The notes: generated by a model from the letters alone, not told the origin. Shown: positions 44,129-58,045, counted from the stretch's first letter. The stretch is 64,000 bases of DNA from Myxococcota bacterium (GCA_028284955.1 JANQQS010000005.1:65946-129945); one strand, 5' to 3'. Made by a program: numbers and translations.

Positions 44129-46009
44129 CTAGCGGACGCTATAGCCAAGCTGCGCGCCTTCGAGGTACCCCGGGCTACCATTTGAAAGCTCCGCGCCGCT
44201 TCTGAGCGCGCCTTCTCGTACCCCGAAGAATACGTAGGCCTTGCCCTCTTCGACGATGGTTTGGCTGTTGTAGCTCCATCTGCCGACCACGATGTCGCGA
44301 AACCCATCGCCGTTGACGTCTCCAACCGCCGACACCGAAGCCGAACTCAGTCGAAGCGGCGAACGCGCGCCTACCTCGGGCGACTCGAGCGCGTTCGAAT
44401 CTTCCGGGGCAAGGCCTTCCACCGACCCGAAGAGCACGGCGATGGCGGCGTCGGTCTTGCTGCGAAGCGCAAACGAAGACGCGCGCGCAACCAAATCGCC
44501 GAACCCATCGCCATTGACGTCGCCGCCCGATAGGGCAAGCGAACTGCTCGGTCGCAGAAACTCGGAAAGGTCTTGCGCCGGCGACATCGACGCGCCCGAG
44601 CGCCCGCCATGAAAGACAAACGCTCCTGCAATGACATCGCCAAACCCATCGCCATTCACATCGCCAAGGCCCGAAACCTTTCCTGCATCCTCCGGCGCAA
44701 TCACGCTGGGGAGCGACAACTCCACATCAGGAGTGTTCGACAAAACATCTGGCGCCCCGTAGATCAGATACGCCGGAGGCGAAGAATCTGTCGATCTCTT
44801 GTGCCCGACGACGATGTCTGCGTACCCGTCGCCATTGACGTCGCCTGCGGACGATAGCGTTCCGCCAAACGTCGCCTCCACCTCTTCGAACGGACCTTGC
44901 GTCGAAAAGGATGGCTGTTCGCTCAGTCCGCTCGCGGCACCGAGATACACAAACACTTTTCCTTGTGCCTCAACGCGCTGGTGATGGCGCGGCTGACCCA
45001 CCACGACATCGGAAAACCCATCCCCGTTGACGTCGCCGGCTGAGGCCACCGCGTAACCAAACTCTCCAAACGCCTGACGGTCGGGATTTTCGAACACCAA
45101 CGACGGCGTCTCGGCAAGACCGCGTTCGCTTCCGAAATATACATAAGCGTAGCCTTGTTCTTCGACTCCGCGTGATTCGAGCGGGGAGCCCACGATAAGA
45201 TCGGCAAAGCCATCGCCGTTCACGTCGCCAGCTTCTGAAACCGAGGTTCCGAAGCGCGCCCCCCCCTCGTCGGCGGGGCTATCGAGAATCAAATCCTGAG
45301 TTCGAGAAAGCGCGCCGTTTCCCGTGCCGTAGTGAATATGCACTTGCCCTTCGTCGGCCTCGCTTGCCGAGGTTCCGCCGCCCGGCGACCCCAGCGCGAT
45401 ATCGCTGAACCCGTCACCATTGTAGTCGCTGGGCAATCGACCCACGTCTACATACCGAACCCGACTCCAGGTCGAACACGCCCGCTCGTCTCGGCACGCC
45501 CGCACACGCCAGAAATATCGCCGCCCGACCGGAGGTGTATCAGCGACCAGGAGCGCCTCTTCGGGAACGAACCCGATCACATCGTCGGGAGCGCCTCGAT
45601 CTCGAATTGCATCTGACGATTCGGTCACGCCCACGTCAAGCTCAGGACTCTCAAATGCGCATTCCCCGAAATCGCCAGCACACGAATCATCAAGCTGAAG
45701 CTGATAAAACTCCGCTTCGCCGACCGGCTCCCACAAAAACTTAGGGCGAAGCGGGTGATGAACCGGAGCTTCCCCATGCTCGCGAGCATCCCGCGCATGC
45801 ATCGCGCCCGTGGAAAACCCATTCCACGGAAATCGAACCGCGGGGGAAGAAAGCGAACCCGCTGTTGCACCATCCAAATCGACGCATCGCCCATCAACAT
45901 CGACCAAACCTTCGTCGCATACGCACACCTCACCATCAAACGCGCTGCCATCAGGACAGCGCGCAGTCGCGCACGCGCCCAACGTCAGGAGGGGAACGAT
46001 CGAACGCAT
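44129..46009 (-). CDS. Integrin-alpha-like FG-GAP repeat lipoprotein
   Basis: The protein has 626 residues from MRSIVPLLTLGAC (lipobox LGAC). After a Cys-rich N-terminal segment (CPDGSAFDGEVCVCDEG) comes a fibronectin-like domain (RPKFLWEPVGEAEFYQLQL, RRYFWRVRACRDERACSTW). A seven-blade-type propeller with repeated GDVNGDGFxDxxxG calcium loops then fills the rest, ending LGYSVR. It is closely related over its whole length to the divergent gene at 46431. It is probably a calcium-dependent surface adhesin. The upstream frame is open only because an 18-bp tandem array lies there. Confidence 0.9.
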   Translation of the reverse strand: MRSIVPLLTLGACATARCPDGSAFDGEVCVCDEGLVDVDGRCVDLDGATAGSLSSPAVRFPWNGFSTGAMHARDAREHGEAPVHHPLRPKFLWEPVGEAEFYQLQLDDSCAGDFGECAFESPELDVGVTESSDAIRDRGAPDDVIGFVPEEALLVADTPPVGRRYFWRVRACRDERACSTWSRVRYVDVGRLPSDYNGDGFSDIALGSPGGGTSASEADEGQVHIHYGTGNGALSRTQDLILDSPADEGGARFGTSVSEAGDVNGDGFADLIVGSPLESRGVEEQGYAYVYFGSERGLAETPSLVFENPDRQAFGEFGYAVASAGDVNGDGFSDVVVGQPRHHQRVEAQGKVFVYLGAASGLSEQPSFSTQGPFEEVEATFGGTLSSAGDVNGDGYADIVVGHKRSTDSSPPAYLIYGAPDVLSNTPDVELSLPSVIAPEDAGKVSGLGDVNGDGFGDVIAGAFVFHGGRSGASMSPAQDLSEFLRPSSSLALSGGDVNGDGFGDLVARASSFALRSKTDAAIAVLFGSVEGLAPEDSNALESPEVGARSPLRLSSASVSAVGDVNGDGFRDIVVGRWSYNSQTIVEEGKAYVFFGVREGALRSGAELSNGSPGYLEGAQLGYSVR

Positions 46010-46045
46010 GAACACCGCCCCAGCGCGTGAAACACGCTGTACCGT

Positions 46046-46099
46046 GCGCACTGTTCTTCCCGAGCGCACTGTTCTTCCCGAGCGCACTGTTCCCCCCGC
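46046..46099. repeat. Tandem array, three 18-bp units (GCGCACTGTTCTTCCCGA)
   Basis: Two perfect units and one diverged unit lie at the 5-prime side of the gene ending at 46009, in the 421-base region between divergent FG-GAP paralogs. The remainder of that region, to 46430, shows no other element I can identify. Confidence 0.85.
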
Positions 46100-46430
46100 T
46101 GGCAACGACTCCCCTCCGCGATCGATGCAGCCCGCACTACGTTGCTGCGGTCGGCAGTGTGTTTACTTTGGTCGATAAGGGCTGATCCGCGCAACCCGAC
46201 CGCGTTTGTATGGAATCGGCCATGAAGTGGGGCCTCACGACCCTTGCATGCGCTGCGCCACAACAAATGCACCACAGGCACCGCTATTTCGAATTGAATC
46301 GCGACCAGTCGTCAACCATCGCCGGTGACCACCCTTTGGCAAGAATGGCGACAAATCACCTTTCGAGGTACTAGTGGTTGGTTGGTACGCCTGTTGTCCG
46401 GTTGCTTCGCCTCGCTTGTGGAGGTCTGAC

Positions 46431-48425
46431 GTGAACGATGTATCGAAGGTTTTTCCAGAAGCCGCGCGGAGCCACAGCATTGCTTGTCGATCGTGGCGGC
46501 GGTTGGTCAATGACGGGAGCGCACTGCTCGCGCTAAACATGATTCTTGCAGGCTGCGGTGGGGCCCGTTGTCCAGATGGACGCATGTTTTTGGATGGTAG
46601 ATGCTCATGCGGCGAAGGACTGGTCGACGTAGACGACCAATGCCTCTCGGCCGATGGAGGTATGAATTCAGACGCGCAACCAATCGAACCGCCCGCTTCT
46701 GATGTGGTCGTGCGATTTCCTTGGAACGGGTACGCGACCGGCAGCATCCACGCGGCCGGTGAACGCACGGGTGATTCCGCGCCGATGACCAATCCTCTGC
46801 GCCCTAAGTTTCTCTGGGAGCAGGTGGATGATGCGGTGTTCTACCAGTTTCAGGCAGATGATTCATGCGATACCGCAGCGTTCGCGGAATGCGCATTTGA
46901 AAGCCCGGAGCTCGATACACAAGTTGCTGAGTCTTCCGAAGACGCTCCCTCAGGAGACATCCCGGAGTCGACCCTTGGTTTCATTCCGGATGAAGAGCTG
47001 CCTGTGGAGGAGAGAACCGAGGCACCGGTGGGCACGCGCTACTACTGGCGCGTGCGCGCGTGCACCGAAGAAGATGTGTGTTCGGCGTGGAGCCGTGTGC
47101 GCTATCTGAATGTGGGTCGATTGCCGAATGACTACGACGGCGACGGGTTCAGCGATGTGGTGGCTGGAGCGCCGGATGGACAGAGCACCACGAGAGCCGC
47201 GGAAAACGGTGAGGGCATCGTGCAAGTTCACTACGGGCTCAGCTCCGGCATGCTCTCTTCGACGCAGGACCTGCTGCTCGACAACCCCGTGGATCAGATG
47301 GACGGTGCGTTCGGAAGATCCGTGTCAGAAGCAGGTGACGTGAACGGCGACGGCTTTGCTGATCTCATTGTGGGGGCGCCCAGCCAATCCAACGGTGCAA
47401 ACGGAGAAGGTGTTGCATACGTATTTCTGGGCTCGGAATCTGGTCTTTCTGAAGAGCCTGATCTGATTTTGGACAACCCAGAAAACCAAGCAGGTGGCGG
47501 TTTTGGCAGCGCGGTCGCGACCGCCGGCGATATCAACGGGGACGGCTTTGCTGATGTCTTGGTCGGAGCGCCTTTTCAGGACGACGCTTTTTCGGCACAA
47601 GGGAAGGTATTCCTCTATTCAGGCTCAGCGAATGGGCTGATCACCGAACCGGCCCGTTCGCTGGTGAGCCCCACGGCGGCAGAGCGCGCGGAGTTCGGAG
47701 GGAGCCTGTCAAGTGCCGGCGATGTCGACGGGGACGGCTATCCGGATGTCGTGATAGGCCACTCCCGAGACGCCTCGGATGAGATTGATCCTCCCGTCTT
47801 CGTTTTTCATGGGAGCCCGAACGGTTTGTTGGATGAACCAAGCACCACGATGATGCTTCCTGAGCAAACACCTACTTCTCAGAACTTCGGAACGGTATCC
47901 CGCGCAGGAGACGTGAACGGCGATGGATACGGAGACATCACCGTCGGGCTTTTCGTCTATCACGGAGGCCCAACCGGTATTGGAACTGTCCCCGCTGCAG
48001 ACGCATCCGCAGAACTGCGAGAACGCTACGTCCAATTTGCGTCTACCAGCGGAGACTTCAACGGCGATGGGTTTCACGACGTACTGATGATCATCGGCCG
48101 CTTTCCTTCGTTTCGCGTTACCGCCTTCTTCGGTTCCACTGCTGGAATTGATCTGTCATCTTTTCAGGATATTCCCCCGCCCACCGATTCGCAGTATGTA
48201 TCTGCCGGCTCCGGCATTGGAGATATCAACGGCGATGGGTTCAATGACATTGTGTTGGGAGACCCTATTTACGGACCTCCTCCGGGCAGCTCCGCGATTA
48301 ACGTAGGTCGCGCTCACGTATTTCTAGGCTCTTCGACCAGCATCAACACCGTCGCGAGCAGCACACTCGAAAATCGAGGTGTTCGAATCCTAGATCGCGC
48401 GCTTCTCGGATTTAGCGTCCGCTAA
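46431..48425 (+). CDS. Integrin-alpha-like FG-GAP repeat lipoprotein, paralog of the 44129 gene
   Basis: The protein has 664 residues. GTG start fixed by GGAGG 6 bases upstream. Lipobox LAGC. It has the same order as its divergent neighbour: Cys-rich segment (CPDGRMFLDGRCSCGEG), fibronectin-like domain (RPKFLWEQVDDAVFYQFQA, RYYWRVRACTEEDVCSAW) and seven FG-GAP units around GDVNGDGFADLIVGAP, ending LGFSVR. The shared C-terminal LGxSVR and matching blades show a duplication followed by inversion. An adhesin-like role is expected; the ligand is unknown. Confidence 0.9.
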   Translation: MNDVSKVFPEAARSHSIACRSWRRLVNDGSALLALNMILAGCGGARCPDGRMFLDGRCSCGEGLVDVDDQCLSADGGMNSDAQPIEPPASDVVVRFPWNGYATGSIHAAGERTGDSAPMTNPLRPKFLWEQVDDAVFYQFQADDSCDTAAFAECAFESPELDTQVAESSEDAPSGDIPESTLGFIPDEELPVEERTEAPVGTRYYWRVRACTEEDVCSAWSRVRYLNVGRLPNDYDGDGFSDVVAGAPDGQSTTRAAENGEGIVQVHYGLSSGMLSSTQDLLLDNPVDQMDGAFGRSVSEAGDVNGDGFADLIVGAPSQSNGANGEGVAYVFLGSESGLSEEPDLILDNPENQAGGGFGSAVATAGDINGDGFADVLVGAPFQDDAFSAQGKVFLYSGSANGLITEPARSLVSPTAAERAEFGGSLSSAGDVDGDGYPDVVIGHSRDASDEIDPPVFVFHGSPNGLLDEPSTTMMLPEQTPTSQNFGTVSRAGDVNGDGYGDITVGLFVYHGGPTGIGTVPAADASAELRERYVQFASTSGDFNGDGFHDVLMIIGRFPSFRVTAFFGSTAGIDLSSFQDIPPPTDSQYVSAGSGIGDINGDGFNDIVLGDPIYGPPPGSSAINVGRAHVFLGSSTSINTVASSTLENRGVRILDRALLGFSVR

Positions 48426-48523: not shown

Positions 48524-48655
48524 TTAGTCGCCGGCGGCAATCACAGCGCGTACTGAATCGGCGGTGACCGCTTCGCGGATCCATCGTTCAAGTACTTCGG
48601 AATCTCCGCACGACCCAATGCGCGCGCGATCTGCATCGGACAGCGCCAGCCCGCG
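48524..48655 (-). pseudogene. C-terminal scar of an Rpn-like nuclease gene
   Basis: The last 43 codons (RGLALSDADRARI, CGDSEVLERWIREAV) match the end of the Rpn-like gene at 50364. The rest is missing. The scar begins directly at the stop of the partner gene at 48658, so a deletion removed the first part of a gene that once followed the cassette here. Confidence 0.75.
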
Positions 48656-48657
48656 AG

Positions 48658-49275
48658 CTACGGTCGCTGTCTCCAATAGCGCTCCGCTTCTTCGTAGGAA
48701 ATCACTGAGTAGTCTTCTGGACGACGTTCTGGGGCACGCGAAAAATGTTTGTTGAGCCATTCATTGAGATATTCGATTTCCTTCGGAGCCCAGTTCTTAG
48801 TGAACACGCTCTTTCGTTTCCCGCCTGCGATCACTGTGGTGATAGCCCTCCAGCCATCCTCCAACAGCACATTGACGTACTCTTCGGAAAGCTCGGGAAA
48901 ACGTATCGCGACCAGCAGAGCTTTGAGCTCTTCGAGCTCTCGTGGCGCTAGCCGAAACGAACCCCTACGCCACTCCACTAAGATCCCCGTTGGAGTGATG
49001 GTCCTATCTGGAATCACGTGAATCACGTTCCCCTCGGCATCCACAGACGTCACCCAATAGCCACCCGCCTCCCAGTCATCGCTCGATTTGTAGAAAACAA
49101 AATCACGGGCGCTTCGAATGGGAAAATCCTCGGTTCGATATCTTTCCGAACCGAAGCGCTCGGACCTTCCGCGAACTGCGTTGCTCACCCAGCGCGGGTA
49201 ATTTCCGAGCACAGCTCCCGAAACTGCCAGCGCAACCGCAAATGCGATGGCCCATGCTCGACGCGGGTAGGTCAC
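48658..49275 (-). CDS. Membrane-anchored partner of the zinc metalloprotease, copy 1
   Basis: The protein has 205 residues. The GTG start overlaps the protease stop (GTGA), with AAGGGTGG three bases upstream, so the pair is translationally coupled. One N-terminal TM helix (AWAIAFAVALAVSGAVLG) anchors a soluble domain of about 170 residues with conserved stretches RYRTEDFPIRSARDF, EWRRGSFRLAPRELEEL, IAGGKRKSVFTKNWAPKEIE and RRPEDYSVISYEEAERYW. I know no family for it. The conserved two-gene arrangement, kept in copy 2, points to a functional link with the protease: inhibitor, chaperone or substrate. Confidence 0.82.
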   Translation of the reverse strand: MTYPRRAWAIAFAVALAVSGAVLGNYPRWVSNAVRGRSERFGSERYRTEDFPIRSARDFVFYKSSDDWEAGGYWVTSVDAEGNVIHVIPDRTITPTGILVEWRRGSFRLAPRELEELKALLVAIRFPELSEEYVNVLLEDGWRAITTVIAGGKRKSVFTKNWAPKEIEYLNEWLNKHFSRAPERRPEDYSVISYEEAERYWRQRP

Positions 49276-50180
49276 GTGCCACCCTTTGGCCAGGGAAAAT
49301 GAACGCCCCCATCGGGTGGATTTCCCCACGGAAGACGCCGAAAATAACCGCGCCGCCCTTGAACCGTCGCCTCGAACTGCGGAGGTGGCCGAAAACGGGA
49401 TCCGCGCCACTTTACCGAACGGACTGAAACTCGCCGGTCAGAAACTGCGCCAATCGGATCGTCGAGGAAGTGATGTTTTATGCGACGGATCCAGGGGTAC
49501 GCATGCCATGCGTCAAAGCGCATGCCCCGCCCCATGACATCAGACTTTTGATAGCCGCGACCATAACCGTCGTACTTGTCGGGATCGCGACGCGCAGCTT
49601 TCGCATTTACGTGGTCGAGCCCCAAGTAGTGCCCCATCTCATGCACCGCTGGGATTTGGCCTCGAGCCATGGGATCTTTGCGTGCATCTAAATCCAGATG
49701 GTCTAGGTAGCCGTCCTCGCTGTCAAAGATGCTCTGGAGACGGCCTCCGAACGTATCCATTCGCATTTCAGACCGGCTGAATGTCATGTCATCTCGCAGC
49801 CGAACCACCGTGCAATTCATGTGCGCGTGATCGGGTCGCGATACAAACCCGATCGTTAGCTGACATCGGATATTGGGATAGCGCGCTCCTCTCCAAACGA
49901 TACTCGGAGGCTCAATCGGCACGAGCCAAAGCTTGTTGTTCCAGCCGAATTCGACAACCTCTTTGAAGCGCCGTTTCCACCGCTCCCACTCTTGAGGCGA
50001 CCACCGTACCAAGACCACATCTCGCTCGTCTTGTTTCACGATTTCCTCGGCCTCGTCGAGCCGATAGGGGTTGAGGTAAGTCGCGACACGTATATCCAGA
50101 GTCGCATACCCATCCCCATCTCGTGGTGAAACGCTAAGCACCGAGTTAAACCAATGGCCATTCACGCGACGCAGGATCAT
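49272..50180 (-). CDS. Predicted zinc metalloprotease (HExGHxLGLDH), copy 1
   Basis: The protein has 302 residues from the ATG of MILRRVNGHW, chosen by alignment with copy 2; a TTG-started extension upstream is not shared. The active-site motif is VHEMGHYLGLDHV near residue 190, the metzincin-type HExxHxxGxxH with Asp before the third His. It is followed after about 30 residues by SDVMGRGMRF, which may supply the Met turn. No signal peptide is apparent. An Arg-rich C-terminus ends FPWPKGGT. The next gene is coupled to it by a 4-base overlap. The substrate is unknown. Confidence 0.85.
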   Translation of the reverse strand: MILRRVNGHWFNSVLSVSPRDGDGYATLDIRVATYLNPYRLDEAEEIVKQDERDVVLVRWSPQEWERWKRRFKEVVEFGWNNKLWLVPIEPPSIVWRGARYPNIRCQLTIGFVSRPDHAHMNCTVVRLRDDMTFSRSEMRMDTFGGRLQSIFDSEDGYLDHLDLDARKDPMARGQIPAVHEMGHYLGLDHVNAKAARRDPDKYDGYGRGYQKSDVMGRGMRFDAWHAYPWIRRIKHHFLDDPIGAVSDRRVSVRSVKWRGSRFRPPPQFEATVQGRRGYFRRLPWGNPPDGGVHFPWPKGGT

Positions 50181-50363
50181 CGAACGCAGCCGATCTTGGA
50201 CGACGCAACATTTCGAACCAAACAATACGGCTCGTCTACAATACGCGCGAAATTCACGGCAGTCGCCAGAGGCACGACTGATTATCGGCTGCGCCAACCC
50301 GAAAGTTGCGTCCGAATCCAAGAAATCACCTGGAGCGATGCCTTGCTCAACGGTATCGCGAAT

Positions 50364-51461
50364 TCAGTCGTCCGCAGCAAAGACATCGCGCGTAGAATTC
50401 GCGGTAGCGGCTACGCGGATCCATCGATCGAGTACATCTGAGTCTCCGCATGACTCGATGCGTGCGCGATCTGCATCGGACAGCGACAGCCCGCGAGCTT
50501 CGAAAATATTCCGCAAAGCAGCTCGTTGAGCCTCCACCTGCCCTGCTGCAACGCCTCGAACGTGCCCTTCTTGAACCCCGGCGGCATGCCCTTTCTCGAG
50601 CCCCCGGGCGTAGTGCCCCTTAGCCCATTCGCTTTGCAGTTCGTATCCTTCCGATTCCATGTACGCCTCCAAAGCTTCCTGGGCTGCCGCGTTGAGCTGC
50701 GAAAGCACCATGTCTGAGTATAGCCTACCTCGCTCTGCGTCGAGGAGCTCAAGTCCCCGTAGCGCGGTCAGCGCCAGCTGAGCAGAATCAACTGCGGAGC
50801 TATGACGGGCATGCGCAAGCACCGAGAGAACACCGAGCTCCGGTGCTTTTTGCGCAGCATCCGAGCCCACGACTCTAGGAGGCTGGTGTCAAACGCGGAC
50901 CGAGGATCGCGCAGCGCCGGTAGGCCAGTCGTCGCGTCCGCGAACCGAGGAAATGCTGAAGCATTTTCGAGCGTGAGGGGATGGCGGCGAATGGCCTGCC
51001 GCCGCAAGCGAGCCGACGGGAGCGTTTGACACCAGCCTCCTGGGGACGGCCTCCGGGCCAACCACCCACGGCTGCACGAAACTTCCACCTCCAAGCGAAA
51101 TTCGCTCGCGGCACCAAGCGGCTACGTGCTCAAACGGCGTCACGACCAGCAACAGGGCATCGCACTGCAAACGAGCGCGTAGATTCGTGACGTAGACTGG
51201 CCAGGTGTAGCGCTTTTGCGGATCACGACGAAGCTGAACTTCGACCACCAGCCCCATCACTGGCCCTCGATCATCAGCCAGCTGCACAACCAAATCTGCC
51301 CGATACTCAGTCGGTAGCGCCTCAGTAAAGTCAGTCGACTGCTCATGAATCACAGAATACTCGGGCAGCTTCACCCCGAGCGACTCTCGCATCAGCTGCG
51401 GAGCAAGTTCAGGGCAGTTTCGAAAGAGCAGCGGTAGTGCTTCGTGGGAAAGCGACGGCAA
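50364..51461 (-). pseudogene. Rpn-like PD-(D/E)XK nuclease gene disrupted by an inverted-repeat element
   Basis: The 5-prime part (TTG start, GAGG upstream) encodes PSLSHEALPLLFRNCPELAP, then YRADLVVQLADD and LVVEVQLRRDPQKRYTWPVY, the D...ExQ core of Rpn/transposase-like nucleases. After GPEAVP the frame runs into a 165-bp inverted-repeat element and meets a stop inside it. The 3-prime part resumes at RVVGSDAAQKAPELGVLSVL with the family's Gly/Ala coiled region (GLEKGHAAGVQEGHVRG) and C-terminus. Removing exactly 165 bases rejoins the frame. The family promotes RecA-independent recombination in other bacteria. Here it is probably inactive. Confidence 0.82.
50877..51041. mobile_element. MITE-like insertion with 20-bp perfect terminal inverted repeats
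   Basis: AGGAGGCTGGTGTCAAACGC at 50877-50896 and its exact reverse complement at 51022-51041 bound the element. The flanks allow a 2-bp CT/AG target duplication. It carries no gene. It interrupts the Rpn-like gene at a codon boundary, adds 55 codons and introduces a stop near its far end. Confidence 0.85.
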
Positions 51462-51541
51462 AGCAACAGCCTCGCCTCCGTTATCGGTAGCTGTAATCGG
51501 AAGTTGCTCTCAAAACGTCGCGTAACTCCCGACCGCAACCA

Positions 51542-51622
51542 CGGCCGCCGTCTCCAATAGCGCTCCGCTTCTTCGTAAGAGATCACTGCGTAGTCTTCTG
51601 GACGACGTTCTGGAGCGCGCTT
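51542..51622 (-). pseudogene. C-terminal fragment of a third partner-gene copy
   Basis: This 81-bp stretch encodes ERRPEDYAVISYEEAERYWR, nearly identical in DNA to the end of the partner gene at 48658. It lies 80 bases upstream of the Rpn-like gene on the same strand, so partner-then-Rpn was once a repeated order. The stop codon is lost. Confidence 0.8.
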
Positions 51623-51751
51623 TTCGTCTAAATTCCAAATCAGGCGCAACTGAGTGTTGCGATGACCGATAAGAACGCATGACTCGGACAATCAGATGAA
51701 CCTACCCGGGCGATCCAACATGGTACACTACCCCGTGTTCGGAGACGTTTG

Positions 51752-52651
51752 ATGTTCCGCCGTCGCGTAAACAGCCGATGGTTTAACTCACTGCTTCGCA
51801 CTTCGCCGCGAGACGGGGATGGATACGCAACCCTCGACATTCGAATCGCGACCTACCTCAATCCTTATCAGCCTGCTGATGCAGAAGAAACCGTGAATCA
51901 AGACAAACAAAAAGTCGTTCTGGTGCAGTGGTCTTCAGAGGAATGGGAGCGATGGAAATCACGGTTCAAGATGGTTGTCGAATCAAACTGGAACAACAAG
52001 CTCTGGCTTGTGCCCATCGAATCTCGCAGTGTCGTTTGGAACGGGGCACGCTATCCCAACATCCGATGTCAGCTGACGATCGAGTTGATGCCACAACCCG
52101 AGCATGCGCATATGAACTGCACGGTGGTTCGGCTACGAGACGACATGGAATTCAGCCGATCCAGCATGCGGCTCGGAGGTTACCGCGTAAACGTTGACAA
52201 GAAAGCGGACGGCTATTTAGACCACAAGGACCTCGATCCACGCGATGATTCTGCGGCACGAGGTCAAATCCCGGTCGTGCACGAAGTCGGGCACTACTTG
52301 GGGCTCGACCACGTGAACGCAGCAGCCGCACGACGCAACCCCGATCAATACGATGGCTATGGTAAGGGCTACCAAGGGTCTGACGTCATGGGCGGAGGCA
52401 TGCGTTTCGACCGTTGGCACGCTTCTCCTTGGATCCACCGCATAAAGCTTCATCTCGTTGATGACTCGAGTGGCTCTCTTTCGAGTGGGCGCGCGTCGAA
52501 CGGAACCGTGAAGTGGCGCGGATCCCGATTTCGACCACCTCCACAGTTTGAGGCGACAGTATTGGGCCAACGGGGATACTTTCGACGTTTTCCCTGGGGA
52601 GATCCCCCGGACGGCGGCGTTCCGTTTCCTTGGCCGAAAGGCGGCTCGTGA
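51752..52651 (+). CDS. Predicted zinc metalloprotease (HExGHxLGLDH), copy 2
   Basis: The protein has 299 residues. GGAG lies 8 bases before the ATG of MFRRRVNSRW. It is homologous to copy 1 over its whole length, with the active site VHEVGHYLGLDHV and SDVMGGGMRF. Conserved stretches such as WNNKLWLVPIE, GARYPNIRCQLTI and HAHMNCTVVRLRDDM suggest a compact fold of its own rather than a standard matrixin. No signal peptide is seen. It overlaps the partner gene by 4 bases. It is oriented opposite to copy 1. Confidence 0.85.
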   Translation: MFRRRVNSRWFNSLLRTSPRDGDGYATLDIRIATYLNPYQPADAEETVNQDKQKVVLVQWSSEEWERWKSRFKMVVESNWNNKLWLVPIESRSVVWNGARYPNIRCQLTIELMPQPEHAHMNCTVVRLRDDMEFSRSSMRLGGYRVNVDKKADGYLDHKDLDPRDDSAARGQIPVVHEVGHYLGLDHVNAAAARRNPDQYDGYGKGYQGSDVMGGGMRFDRWHASPWIHRIKLHLVDDSSGSLSSGRASNGTVKWRGSRFRPPPQFEATVLGQRGYFRRFPWGDPPDGGVPFPWPKGGS

Positions 52652-53316
52652 AGCTTCCGAGTCGGAGAGTGAAAATCATCGCAGTGGGAGTGACGCTCAT
52701 CGCCATCGCTGTGCTTATCGCACTGGCAGCGATCGGAAACCGTCCAAGCAAACCCAAAAACGCAACATCGGCGAACGCGAAGCGAGCGGATTCAGAAAGC
52801 CAGACGAAAGTCGAACGCACTGGCTCGAAACGGTATCGAACCGAGGACTTCCCGATTCGGAGCGCTCGTGACTTTCTGTTTTACAGCACGAGCTACAACT
52901 GGGAAGCCGCGGGCAGCTATGTCACCTCCATAGACGCCAAGGGAAACGTGATTCACGTAACTCCCGACAGAATCGACACCCCGACTGGCTTCCGAGTGGA
53001 ATGGCGCCGAGGCTCGTTTCGACTTACGCCACAAGAGCTCAAAGCGTTCAAAGACCTTCTGATTGAAATCCGCTTTCCCGAACTATCCGACGAATATATC
53101 GACACCGCGTGGGCCGACGGCTGGCAGTCTATCGATACGGTCATCGCGGGCGGAAAGCGCAAGAGTGTATTCACAAAAAACTGGGCCCCGAAGGAAATCG
53201 AACGACTTAATGATTGGCTGAGAGAACATATTTCGAGAGCTCCCGATCGCCAGCCTGAAGACTACACCGTGATCTCTTACGAAGAAGCGGAACGCTATTG
53301 GAAGGAGAAACCATAG
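52648..53316 (+). CDS. Membrane-anchored partner of the zinc metalloprotease, copy 2
   Basis: The protein has 222 residues. GTG start in a GTGA overlap with the protease stop and AAGGCGG three bases upstream. TM helix VKIIAVGVTLIAIAVLIALA, then a Lys/Asn/Ser linker longer than in copy 1, then the conserved domain (RYRTEDFPIRSARDF, EWRRGSFRLTPQELK, IAGGKRKSVFTKNWAPKEIE, EEAERYWKEKP). No named family. Both copies keep the overlap architecture, so selection for equal production is likely. Confidence 0.82.
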   Translation: MKLPSRRVKIIAVGVTLIAIAVLIALAAIGNRPSKPKNATSANAKRADSESQTKVERTGSKRYRTEDFPIRSARDFLFYSTSYNWEAAGSYVTSIDAKGNVIHVTPDRIDTPTGFRVEWRRGSFRLTPQELKAFKDLLIEIRFPELSDEYIDTAWADGWQSIDTVIAGGKRKSVFTKNWAPKEIERLNDWLREHISRAPDRQPEDYTVISYEEAERYWKEKP

Positions 53317-53402: not shown

Positions 53403-53933
53403 CTATTCGATGATGAAGTAGACCACGGGAATGGCGAAGATGCCCAGAAGTAGCCCACAGAAAAGCGTCAAGAAGAAGTGTTTTACGGTAGTTCCTAGCG
53501 AGAGACGACCTTCGGAGCGGCGTAGCAAAAGCCACGCGCTCGCGGTGGCAACGGCCACACAAATACTCACCACGATGCCCGACGCTTGCACCCAGCAATC
53601 AGGGCAATGGGCAAACGCCGTGCGCGGAATGAGCCAGAGTGCCGCGACGTAGACACCAGCCACGGCGATCACGCCGCTGGTACCTTTGGAGGCGATATCA
53701 CCTTGGCTACCGAACGTCGTGCCTTCCAGCGCAACGGGCTGACCATTGATCTTGACGGCCTTGGAGTAGCCCTTGGGTGAAAGACCGCTGCGGCCAACGT
53801 TGGGCAGCGGAGTCGGCACAAAGGGCGCCGGAGGCCCCGGCATCTTGCACACATTCGGCGTCGTCGCCGCCGCTACGCCGTTCGAGCCTTTGGTAACTGG
53901 AGTCTTCGGGCCGTTGATGGTGACCTTGCCCAT
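53403..53933 (-). CDS. PAAR-like (DUF4150) protein with a hydrophobic C-terminal domain
   Basis: The protein has 176 residues. Residues 1-85 are almost identical to the head of the protein at 57053 (VTINGPKTPVTKGSNGVAAA, PFVPTPLPNVGRSGLSP, VKINGQPVALEGTTFGSQGD), the DUF4150/PAAR-like fold that caps type VI secretion spikes and loads effectors. The tail differs: three TM-like helices (VIAVAGVYVAALWLIP, GIVVSICVAVATASAWLLL, HFFLTLFCGLLLGIFAIPVVYF). It could be a membrane-acting effector or a leftover module; an immunity gene is not obvious next to it. No T6SS structural genes are in the window. Confidence 0.82.
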   Translation of the reverse strand: MGKVTINGPKTPVTKGSNGVAAATTPNVCKMPGPPAPFVPTPLPNVGRSGLSPKGYSKAVKINGQPVALEGTTFGSQGDIASKGTSGVIAVAGVYVAALWLIPRTAFAHCPDCWVQASGIVVSICVAVATASAWLLLRRSEGRLSLGTTVKHFFLTLFCGLLLGIFAIPVVYFIIE

Positions 53934-54043: not shown

Positions 54044-56152
54044 TCAACCGCGCTGAAACTTCGAGCCTTTGGCACGACGGGTTTTCTTGCGCTCGGCTCG
54101 GAACGCGCGCACGGCGCTGACAAGGAATCGAATTTGTTCGCGTCGATCGACTACACCAGCGTCATGAAGCTCAGTTAGCGACGACGCCAGGCAAAGCAGG
54201 TAGGATAGTGAACTCGTGTTCGCGTCGTAGCTGCAAGGGATTTCGGGGAACGTCACGCGCTCTCCGGCGCGAACGCCATAGAGACGATTGCGAACTCCGC
54301 CTGGCCAAAGCACTTCCACAACTCCTCTCTGGGCATGCCCCATGCCGAAAGACGCGATCAAACTATCCTGCGACGCGTAGCTCGATCCTCCGAGCACTGG
54401 CGCCATGACGGCCTGGCCTCCCTTGGGTTTGAACGCTACCACCGCACCGATGCCGTCTCTATTTGCTTTTCCGTGTCGTGTTAGCCCGGCGCCACCGACT
54501 AGTTCAACCTGCGCCCATTGATTGTGATTGTCCGCGCTGTTGATTTCGACCGAAAGCGTACCATCAGGAAAAACCAACCCATTCCAAGTAAACATGAACG
54601 TGCTTGGGTCGCCGAACACTACATCGCCGAGAGGAGTGAACGTCGGAACGATGCGAGCGTCGACGTCAAACTCGCCGCCAAATGTCGGTACCCCTACGAG
54701 CGGCAATGGCTCTGGGATATCGAAGTTTGAAACGGAGACGATGTCGACAAAACCATCATTGTTCAAATCACCAACCGCCATTCCATGCACGGTTCGCCGA
54801 TTGTGGTCGGTTGACCCAGCCAGCGCGTCTACATCGCGAACGAAGTTCGCGCTCCCGTCGTTGCTCCAAACAACCCCTGGCGATGTCTCGACGAACGGGC
54901 CTGCGTCCAAACCACCATGAAAGACGATATCGGTGTCGCCGTCGTTGTCGTAGTCGAATGACGACGTTCCCCAACCAAACGGGCTATATACTCGACCGTC
55001 ACTCTCGCTATCTGTGAAAAACCCATCGTCCTGTTGCAAGAACCATCGGGAGTCTAGGTTGTATACGCTCGACAACTCCGGCGGCACACCCTGCACCGCG
55101 CCCGCAAACGGGCCAAAGTTCGTGACGAACAGATCAAGCGTGCCGCTTCGGTCGTAATCACCAAACGCGAGCCCCATCCAGGTTCCAGCTTTCGCCATTC
55201 CCTTCTCCGAAGTCACGTTGGTGAAGTAGCCAGTCCCATCGTTTTCAAACAACTGAAGAAAGCCGCGGTCGATACCCCCCGCCACCGCTGGAGGAAACCC
55301 CGCCTGGTCGTCGGCTTGGACGATATCGACATCTCCATCCAAATCGTAGTCCACCAAGGAAACCGCCCACGTAATTGTGTTGCTCCCAGGAGGTGCACCC
55401 GGTGACCGGTATAGATCGAGAATGCCCGACGACTCAGACACATCTGCGAATCGGTTGCGTCCTACATTGAGCAACAGCTGATTGGGTTGAATCCCTTCAA
55501 ACGGCTCGACGAAGATCTGCGCTTGCTGGCTTTGGTCGAACACGTTTGCCACGAAAATATCGAGCAACCCATCTCCATTGACATCACCCATCGCGCACGA
55601 ACTTGAATGAGAAAAGCCGGCCGCCCCCGCCGGAGCGGTCACATCGACAAACATGCCACCTTGGTTCTCATAGAGACGATTGCTCCCGAACGTCGACAGC
55701 ACCATCAAATCAGGATCGCCATCGTTGTCCAAGTCGCCATAGCAAACGCCGGAAGAGTCCTGCTCGATGGCATCGACTCCAACATCGGCGGCGACGTCGA
55801 CAAACTGAACAACACCGGTCTGAACAAACTGATTGGCGTAAAGACTATTCGCAGCGCCCGGACCGTTTGTGACGTAGATGTCAAGGTCGCCATCGCTGTC
55901 GTAATCAAAAACAGCGACTCCCGGCGCACCGCGACTCTTCGTTGGCGACGCTACCAACGCGTCGAATGTGAACAATGGCAATTGCTTTTGTGCTTGCCAA
56001 ATAGCCTCACTAGCCGACGGCGCACGACGGTACGTCACACCGGCTTGATCGCCGACCACAATGTCGTCGAACACGACCCCCTGCGCATACGTGACCCACG
56101 GCGACACAAGAACAAGCGCAGCGGAGAAACCGCTTTTGACTCGTACATCCAT
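54044..56152 (-). CDS. CRTAC1-type protein: FG-GAP/VCBS propeller plus UnbV/ASPIC domain
   Basis: The protein has 702 residues. GGGGG lies shortly before the ATG. Signal peptide ending VTYAQ. Repeated calcium-type units (VFDYDSDGDLDIYVTNG, YGDLDNDGDPDLMVLS, MGDVNGDGLLDIFVAN, VDYDLDGDVDIVQAD, FGDYDRSGTLDLFVTN, FDYDNDGDTDIVFHGG) form a propeller, followed by a UnbV/ASPIC module (GIGAVVAFKPKGGQ, SFGMGHAQRGVVEVLWPGG). The order matches the CRTAC1 family, secreted proteins of largely unknown role. A short Cys-bearing, helical and basic extension (FRAERKKTRRAKGSKF) ends it. Confidence 0.9.
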   Translation of the reverse strand: MDVRVKSGFSAALVLVSPWVTYAQGVVFDDIVVGDQAGVTYRRAPSASEAIWQAQKQLPLFTFDALVASPTKSRGAPGVAVFDYDSDGDLDIYVTNGPGAANSLYANQFVQTGVVQFVDVAADVGVDAIEQDSSGVCYGDLDNDGDPDLMVLSTFGSNRLYENQGGMFVDVTAPAGAAGFSHSSSCAMGDVNGDGLLDIFVANVFDQSQQAQIFVEPFEGIQPNQLLLNVGRNRFADVSESSGILDLYRSPGAPPGSNTITWAVSLVDYDLDGDVDIVQADDQAGFPPAVAGGIDRGFLQLFENDGTGYFTNVTSEKGMAKAGTWMGLAFGDYDRSGTLDLFVTNFGPFAGAVQGVPPELSSVYNLDSRWFLQQDDGFFTDSESDGRVYSPFGWGTSSFDYDNDGDTDIVFHGGLDAGPFVETSPGVVWSNDGSANFVRDVDALAGSTDHNRRTVHGMAVGDLNNDGFVDIVSVSNFDIPEPLPLVGVPTFGGEFDVDARIVPTFTPLGDVVFGDPSTFMFTWNGLVFPDGTLSVEINSADNHNQWAQVELVGGAGLTRHGKANRDGIGAVVAFKPKGGQAVMAPVLGGSSYASQDSLIASFGMGHAQRGVVEVLWPGGVRNRLYGVRAGERVTFPEIPCSYDANTSSLSYLLCLASSLTELHDAGVVDRREQIRFLVSAVRAFRAERKKTRRAKGSKFQRG

Positions 56153-56397: not shown

Positions 56398-57039
56398 TCA
56401 GTCGTGGATGCTTGAAATCATCACCCAGTCTCCACGGATGACACCGATTCGATGTCCAAGATCCGGCACCACAGTCCACAGTTCTGGATCAACGGTCTCG
56501 TGTCGAAACAACGCGAGAAGCGGAAACCCAAGATCAGTTTTCCCAAGCGCGCGGTCGTGAACGATATCGACCAACGATTCGCCATTCTTTCGCCTCTGCT
56601 CCGTATCGTATTCTTCCTGATCGATCGAAAGGAGCGCGGAACACTCCAAGTCGAGCGCCACAACGAGGTCTCCCATGATTCGGGTGAGCCATCTTGGACC
56701 CGGTTGCTGGACGGCGTTGCCAGAAAACTGAAGTCCGTACCGCACAGGAGCGAACGTTCGACGAACAGACAGCACGAACTCGTGCGCTTCGATCCAAAAT
56801 GGAAACTCGGCAACGTTGTACAAGCTCTCATCTTCGACCACGCTCGGAAACTCGTCTCGCGACAAGCCAGATACATCCGCGATGGTTTTCGTATCTTCCG
56901 CGTCACCGAGCCAATGCAAGGCGTACTCTCCTCCGCCCTTCGCACCTCGAGCACGCAGGCATGACCAAAATCGCTCCAGCACCTCCAGGTTGGACAGTGA
57001 TGGTCGTGAAAACGCAATCGAATGAGCTTCTCGTGGCAT
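56398..57039 (-). CDS. Probable immunity protein for the PAAR-nuclease effector
   Basis: The protein has 213 residues, soluble and acidic, with no signal peptide. It begins 13 bases after the effector stop on the same strand, with GAGA just upstream of its ATG. Motifs such as EYALHWLGDAEDTKTIADVS, IEAHEFVLSVRRTF and VVPDLGHRIGVIRGDWVM match no family I can name. The position directly behind a toxin, the acidity and the decayed extra copy downstream are typical of immunity genes. It presumably binds and blocks the nuclease tail in the cytoplasm. Confidence 0.72.
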   Translation of the reverse strand: MPREAHSIAFSRPSLSNLEVLERFWSCLRARGAKGGGEYALHWLGDAEDTKTIADVSGLSRDEFPSVVEDESLYNVAEFPFWIEAHEFVLSVRRTFAPVRYGLQFSGNAVQQPGPRWLTRIMGDLVVALDLECSALLSIDQEEYDTEQRRKNGESLVDIVHDRALGKTDLGFPLLALFRHETVDPELWTVVPDLGHRIGVIRGDWVMISSIHD

Positions 57040-57052
57040 CGTGTTCTCAACA

Positions 57053-58045
57053 CTAAATTTGAATTACTTGGAGCTTACCAGGAGGCATACCCAACCCTCC
57101 GGCAAGTTTCCTGATTTGCTGCTCTGCTTTGTCATGACCACCTGGAATCTTGTAGATCACACCCATGTCAGCATTTCGAGCGAGCATCACATTGCGCTTC
57201 ATCTGTCTTCTATTGCGGCCGGTCTCATCCTCGCTCTTTGCTGGATAGAAATCCGCTCCGCTCTTGGCTTCAACCGCATGCATGGTGCCGCTTCGATCCT
57301 GACCGACATGATCGATTTCGGCTCCCATAGGCGCTCCGCAGTGTTTGCAAGAATGCGTCACCTTGTGGTCATTCCCAGTCGACAAACAACTGCGCGACTC
57401 GCCGTGGGCGCGTTTCATCTCGCCTTCGGCCCGCAAGATCTCCGGCTCATTATGTTTCGCCGCCGCGTGCTCGTGGCGACCGCCAGGGCTCCGGTCACGA
57501 GCAAGCTGGTTTCTCCGATCTTTGAACTCTTCATCCGTCGGCGGACAATACGGCTCCCCTCCCTCTTCATGCCCAGGACGTGGATCCGCCTGGGACGCAG
57601 TCCCGTATCCGGGCTCCTGCACGATGCCCATCATCGTCGCCGCGTTCGGCGGGCTACCTCCGGGCCCGCAGTTGTTGAGCATCGGGTCGCCTAGCAAGTG
57701 CACCCGCTTGCCTTCGATTTTGACGTTCATCGAACCGGGACCGATGAACTTCGTGATGCCATGCGCCGCGGAAGACACGATCCCGCCGCCAGTACCTTTA
57801 GAGGCGACATCACCTTGGCTACCGAATGTCGCGCCTTCTAGCGCAACGGGCTGACCATTGATCTTGACGGTCTTGGAGTAGCCCTCGGGTGAAAGACCGC
57901 TGCGGCCAACATTGGGCAGCGGAGTCGGCACAAAAGGCGCGGGAGGCCCCGGCATCTTGCACACGTTCGGCGTCGTCGCCGCCGCTACACCATTCGAGCC
58001 TCTAGTAACCGGAGTTTTCGGGCCGTTGATGGTGACCTTGCCCAT
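57053..58045 (-). CDS. PAAR-like (DUF4150) effector with C-terminal PD-(D/E)XK nuclease domain
   Basis: The protein has 330 residues. The DUF4150/PAAR-like head covers about residues 1-130 (VTINGPKTPVTRGSNGVAAA to VKIEGKRVHLLGDPML, CGPGGSPPN). A charged linker follows. The C-terminal toxin domain (about 225-330) has a small Cys/His patch (HSCKHCGAPMGAEIDHVG), then MHAVEAKSGADFYP, which gives a D...ExK core, and RNRRQMKRNVMLARNADMGVIY, as in restriction-endonuclease-fold toxins. It is probably delivered by a type VI system encoded elsewhere and degrades nucleic acid in competitors. The immunity candidate follows after 13 bases. Confidence 0.85.
   Translation of the reverse strand: MGKVTINGPKTPVTRGSNGVAAATTPNVCKMPGPPAPFVPTPLPNVGRSGLSPEGYSKTVKINGQPVALEGATFGSQGDVASKGTGGGIVSSAAHGITKFIGPGSMNVKIEGKRVHLLGDPMLNNCGPGGSPPNAATMMGIVQEPGYGTASQADPRPGHEEGGEPYCPPTDEEFKDRRNQLARDRSPGGRHEHAAAKHNEPEILRAEGEMKRAHGESRSCLSTGNDHKVTHSCKHCGAPMGAEIDHVGQDRSGTMHAVEAKSGADFYPAKSEDETGRNRRQMKRNVMLARNADMGVIYKIPGGHDKAEQQIRKLAGGLGMPPGKLQVIQI

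Follow-up and report, generated by a model that had tools for sequence, protein, structure and literature searches.

The window analysed here, a stretch of 64,000 nucleotides from the genome of a Myxococcota bacterium (G000), contains two complete two-gene units, each encoding a metzincin-like protease and an adjoining, predicted membrane-anchored partner, which probably represent an antibacterial effector and its immunity protein. In copy 1, on the minus strand, the protease gene (49272-50180; 302 residues) is followed by the gene of a predicted immunity protein (48658-49275; 205 residues) that begins with a hydrophobic segment. Copy 2, on the plus strand, comprises a protease gene (51752-52651; 299 residues) and a partner gene (52648-53316; 222 residues), whose product shows an N-terminal hydrophobic, putatively transmembrane helix by pattern matching as well as a distant DUF6438-like domain. 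At both junctions, the stop codon of the protease gene overlaps the GTG start codon of the partner gene within the sequence GTGA. The coordinates and anatomy of these oppositely oriented units, as given in an original prediction made from the DNA sequence alone, were thus confirmed. Between the two copies, the proteases are 73% and the partners 65% identical, and the ratios of nonsynonymous to synonymous substitution rates (dN/dS, Nei-Gojobori) are 0.121 for the protease and 0.11 for the partner, which identifies both pairs as maintained genes under strong purifying selection rather than chance open reading frames (ORFs). Since dS is near saturation, the duplication of the pair is old. Across the whole genome, the protease gene is present twice and the partner gene likewise twice, in addition to a single partner tail of 27 residues.

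The two proteases share the HExxHxxGxxH signature and a Met-turn-like motif of the metzincin peptidases (M10-like). The zinc motif is kept as HEMGHYLGLDH in copy 1 and HEVGHYLGLDH in copy 2, and the sequence DVMG, located ~25 residues further at the place of the Met-turn, was assigned by position. Matches to the Pfam family Peptidase_M10 (Matrixin) reached 18.5 and 17 bits, below the cut-off of 24, with the 18.5-bit match lying around HE[MV]GHYLGLDH, and the best profile match in the PDB was MMP-12 (E about 0.025). A metzincin-like domain is the best reading of these features.

Searching 379 genomes of the phylum with a single sequence returned only one distant relative, the C-terminal domain of a protein with an eCIS_core domain (named after the extracellular contractile injection systems, eCIS), whose gene is overlapped at its end by a lipoprotein gene. 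A first scan of genome contigs with the protease yielded no relative, and a second one, led by the distant relative, yielded a single Solirubrobacter locus. The family became visible only with a four-row profile that included the distant and the Solirubrobacter relatives, which detected the domain in 22 of the 379 genomes. Weak matches at the end of the profile list, such as the ordinary secreted metzincin-like proteins at L079, L082 and L083, were left out because they probably share only the common zinc motif. No protease relatives were found in the plasmids and viral contigs searched.

Several of these relatives are physically linked to delivery modules. At one locus (L094, genome G368), the protease domain follows Phage_GPD, Gp5_trimer_C and Phage_base_V domains in a VgrG fusion; two protease genes in a further genome (G343) start 4-5 bp after VgrG; and at five loci (L040, L096, L099, L108 and L110) the protease is fused to eCIS_core (PF13699). 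In four relatives (L098, L099, L110 and L111), an OmpA peptidoglycan-binding domain interrupts the protease domain ahead of the zinc motif, which points to an action in the bacterial periplasm. In the phylogenetic tree, the two proteases of the window and the VgrG-adjacent G343 proteins form one group (support 100/100), and only these four proteins use His as the third zinc ligand, with Asp in all others. Given the long branches beneath it, however, this grouping is suggestive rather than firm.

The partner is conserved along with the protease. A partner of the same family adjoins the protease at 16 of the 22 distant loci, 15 times downstream, mostly at distances of -14 to +2 nucleotides, and once upstream, and many of these distant partners show a lipobox by pattern matching. 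The VgrG-protease fusion at L094 is instead followed, again with a GTGA overlap, by a gene of another family (L094:7895-8917, plus strand; 341 residues), whose product is a candidate for a different immunity protein. Partner 2 aligns with the C-terminal two thirds of DUF6438 (PF20033), although its score (23.1 bits), like that of partner 1 (18.6 bits), stays below the gathering cut-off of 30. The original prediction had named a partner that maps to a known, unrelated family as evidence against it; what we found is this weak match to a domain for which the literature searched holds no function. In a leave-one-out analysis against ~1,440 ORFs, from which a contig-edge partner fragment at L040 was excluded, the profiles recovered the omitted partner at rank 1 in 11 of 15 cases and among the top three in 14, and failed for L107. 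A profile of 14 distant partners, none of them from the window, matched window partner 2 with E=8.7e-5, making it the best new sequence bar one, and that exception is itself a partner. The partners thus appear to form one divergent family, an assignment that is well supported for most of the distant members and moderately for those in the window.

The VgrG fusion, VgrG adjacency and eCIS_core fusions of the relatives make an effector-immunity relationship far more likely, and they do not support the view of the original prediction that the protease and its partner match no kind of system that could be named. Its proposal of an obligate pair, for instance a protease with a membrane inhibitor, has fared better, as gene overlaps and homologous partners are seen again in distant genomes. 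We consider it likely that the metzincin-type protease is secreted as an antibacterial effector, with the partner as its immunity protein; most likely, the effector is a non-fused cargo of a type VI secretion system (T6SS) and acts in the periplasm. The genome of the window contains two TssC genes, at two T6SS loci. In addition to a truncated gene, it has five places with Tox-PAAR-like genes, spread over the contig of the window and three others, and at one of them the gene follows a DUF2169 gene within a spike-type operon. We infer that the protease would be loaded onto the T6SS without being fused to it, injected into a competing cell and, once in the periplasm of the competitor, cut envelope proteins there. 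The membrane-anchored partner, with its folded part in the periplasm, would block the protease when it is injected by sister cells.

Several observations weigh against this interpretation. The window proteases are neither fused to a spike protein nor adjacent to VgrG, and the PAAR-like gene closest to them is a truncated one that converges with copy 2. The link to VgrG through the G343 proteins is subject to the long branches mentioned above, and these nearest relatives have no recognisable adjoining partner. Altogether, no recognisable partner was found at five of the 22 distant loci (both G343 loci, L096, L105 and L106); proteases without a partner, whose wide occurrence the original prediction had named as evidence against it, hence do exist but are a minority. 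Conversely, L041 harbours a partner-like lipoprotein without a protease. The similarity among partners is low: window partner 1 matched the profile of the 14 distant partners only weakly (E=0.035), and profile-profile comparison was likewise weak (probability 9%, E=0.0035), which is why ranked profile searches and the leave-one-out analysis were used. Finally, structure prediction from two-sequence alignments gave no usable model (mean predicted local distance difference test scores, pLDDT, of 28.8 and 42.0).

Alternatively, the same toxin-immunity logic may be directed at a eukaryotic or other non-bacterial target, or served by another delivery route, with the partner guarding the envelope proteins of the producer itself instead of sister cells. 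Consistent with this idea, the VgrG-adjacent copies in G343 have no partner, many relatives carry eCIS_core, and yeast is a target of some eCIS toxins (PMC8213781). However, an envelope-located partner is kept at most loci, including both window copies, although it would be needless for an anti-eukaryotic effector, and the OmpA insertions again suggest a periplasmic site of action. We therefore regard this alternative as unlikely. Less probable still is that the partner serves as a substrate or sensor of the protease, with a fragment released by cleavage then acting as a signal or altering the cell wall, a model proposed for the Mtz-Tim pair of Listeria. There, a secreted metzincin adjoins a lipoprotein resembling tissue inhibitors of metalloproteinases (TIMP-like) and cleaves it (PMC8235301), and gene order and anchoring, as predicted for the window, are the same. 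Listeria Mtz, however, is merely secreted, whereas relatives of the present protease are attached to VgrG and eCIS modules. In addition, no obvious signal peptide is present in the window protease.

The two pairs lie within an island of presumed effector genes. Next to copy 2 lies the truncated Tox-PAAR-like gene (53403-53933, minus strand; 29.4 bits against a cut-off of 31), whose PAAR-like domain is joined to a hydrophobic tail of ~90 residues; it may be a remnant or else encode a small effector that acts on membranes. Further along, an intact Tox-PAAR-like protein (57053-58045, minus strand), whose C-terminal domain is nuclease-like and contains an ExK-like motif, provides the context of a T6SS-type spike effector. 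Its presumed immunity gene (56407-57039, minus strand) has a similar counterpart beside similar effectors on contig C169. PAAR-like proteins with this nuclease-like domain (EIDHVGQ...VEAKSG), encoded ahead of a presumed immunity gene of ~213 residues, form a recurrent arrangement, which occurs in the window (56407-58045, minus strand) as well as at L042:3918-5564 and L057:487-2204. On both sides, the island is bordered by genes for large FG-GAP repeat proteins (44129-48425 and 54044-56152). No eCIS_core was found in the genome of the window, in a search whose control gave no match anywhere, and Rfam returned no match in the window.

Between the two pairs lies an Rpn-type nuclease gene (50364-51461, minus strand), and two gene tails flank this gene together with copy 1. 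Read along the minus strand, the locus runs from a partner-gene tail (51620-51541; 91% identity to partner 1 over 80 nucleotides) through the Rpn-type gene (51461-50364), protease 1 and partner 1 to an Rpn-type gene tail (48662-48524; 80% identity to 50366-50502 over 137 nucleotides), which starts immediately at the TAG stop codon of partner 1 and is thus fused to its end. The positions of the Rpn-like gene and its two accompanying scars were correctly recognised in the original prediction, which missed, however, that the gene is interrupted by an element of ~167 bp (approximate limits 50875-51043) that resembles miniature inverted-repeat transposable elements (MITEs). This MITE-like element has the terminal sequence CTAGGAGGCTGGTGTCAAACGC and ~40 copies in the genome, with complete copies being 92-98% identical. 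Many contig ends of the assembly fall within copies of it.

The designation Rpn-type denotes only a resemblance, because neither half of the window copy nor one intact paralogue that was searched matched the Pfam family Rpn (PF04754). Like the recombination-promoting nucleases of the Rpn family (PMC5350276, PMC10327210), whose C-terminal part contains four-residue repeats (PMC10327210), intact paralogues combine a PD-(D/E)xK-like N-terminal part with four-residue repeats in the C-terminal part; the window copy, by contrast, is interrupted and lies outside the protease-partner pair. Paralogues occur at several other loci of the genome, three of which adjoin PAAR-like effector and immunity genes (contigs C169 and C61). 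This closeness looks lineage-specific, since among the matches listed for G339, G414 and G478-G480, five genomes of the order, no PAAR-like gene has an Rpn-type gene less than 40 kb away.

The two tails are duplication or deletion remnants that would fit a former tandem repeat, parts of which were lost by deletion; the locus may have been duplicated with rearrangement inside the effector island, leaving behind tails of neighbouring genes. As an account of these tails, the repeated protease-partner-Rpn unit that the original prediction proposed as ancestor is fair, but it describes what happened at this locus rather than a conserved cassette. Being split by the MITE-like element, absent beside every distant pair and part of a dispersed family, the Rpn-type gene is best regarded as a bystander and not a component of the system. 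A protease-partner-Rpn cassette for defence or mobility is accordingly very improbable and largely refuted, even though the tails indicate that Rpn-type and partner genes were formerly adjacent more than once and Rpn proteins elsewhere act as toxin-antitoxin anti-phage factors (PMC10327210), since none of the 24 distant loci in which this recurrence was sought had an Rpn-type ORF, Rpn-type relatives are scattered over 95 of the 184 genomes of the order, and PADLOC gave no match.

Metallopeptidase effector-immunity pairs are already known as a kind, within which the present pair apparently represents a new family. The closest parallels are Tpe1-Tpi1 and VgrG2b(C-ter)-PA0261 (PMC6899460), in which a zinc metallopeptidase toxin, VgrG-fused in some members, is likewise accompanied by an adjoining immunity gene, whose periplasmic product may be held in the envelope by a transmembrane helix or a lipid anchor. 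These toxins contain an HExxH motif in a DUF4157-like domain, as opposed to the metzincin-like HExxHxxGxxH seen here; the link is one of analogy. Zincin-like toxin domains joined to Rhs, T6SS and Photorhabdus virulence cassette (PVC)/eCIS modules have also been described as Tox-MPTase1-5 (PMC3482391); the part of that source considered here gives only HExxH-type motifs and lists no immunity protein, whereas the present family has a recurrent partner. The Listeria Mtz-Tim pair (PMC8235301) shares the arrangement of a metzincin gene directly followed by that of a membrane-anchored presumed regulator, but it is Gram-positive, secreted and phage-derived, and has no link to contractile injection. 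With slightly better than even chances, the proteins described here belong to an unnamed toxin-immunity superfamily, in which metzincin-like effectors move between T6SS and eCIS-type carriers and every effector has its partner in a single immunity family, envelope-anchored and related to DUF6438.

For most antibacterial eCIS toxins, Geller et al. (2021; PMC8213781) reported that no immunity gene could be identified. The finding that an immunity-type gene usually adjoins the eCIS_core-linked toxins of one class bears on this open point and, if our interpretation is true, a group of such toxins would gain the immunity genes that surveys found mostly missing. A metzincin-type class would be added to the metallopeptidase effectors, and a set of unannotated lipoproteins and transmembrane proteins near DUF6438 would be assigned a function that can be tested, namely to confer immunity against a metalloprotease toxin. 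The duplicated pair within one genome offers a natural test of cross-protection between two immunity proteins and, if confirmed at the bench, the partner family would deserve a name.

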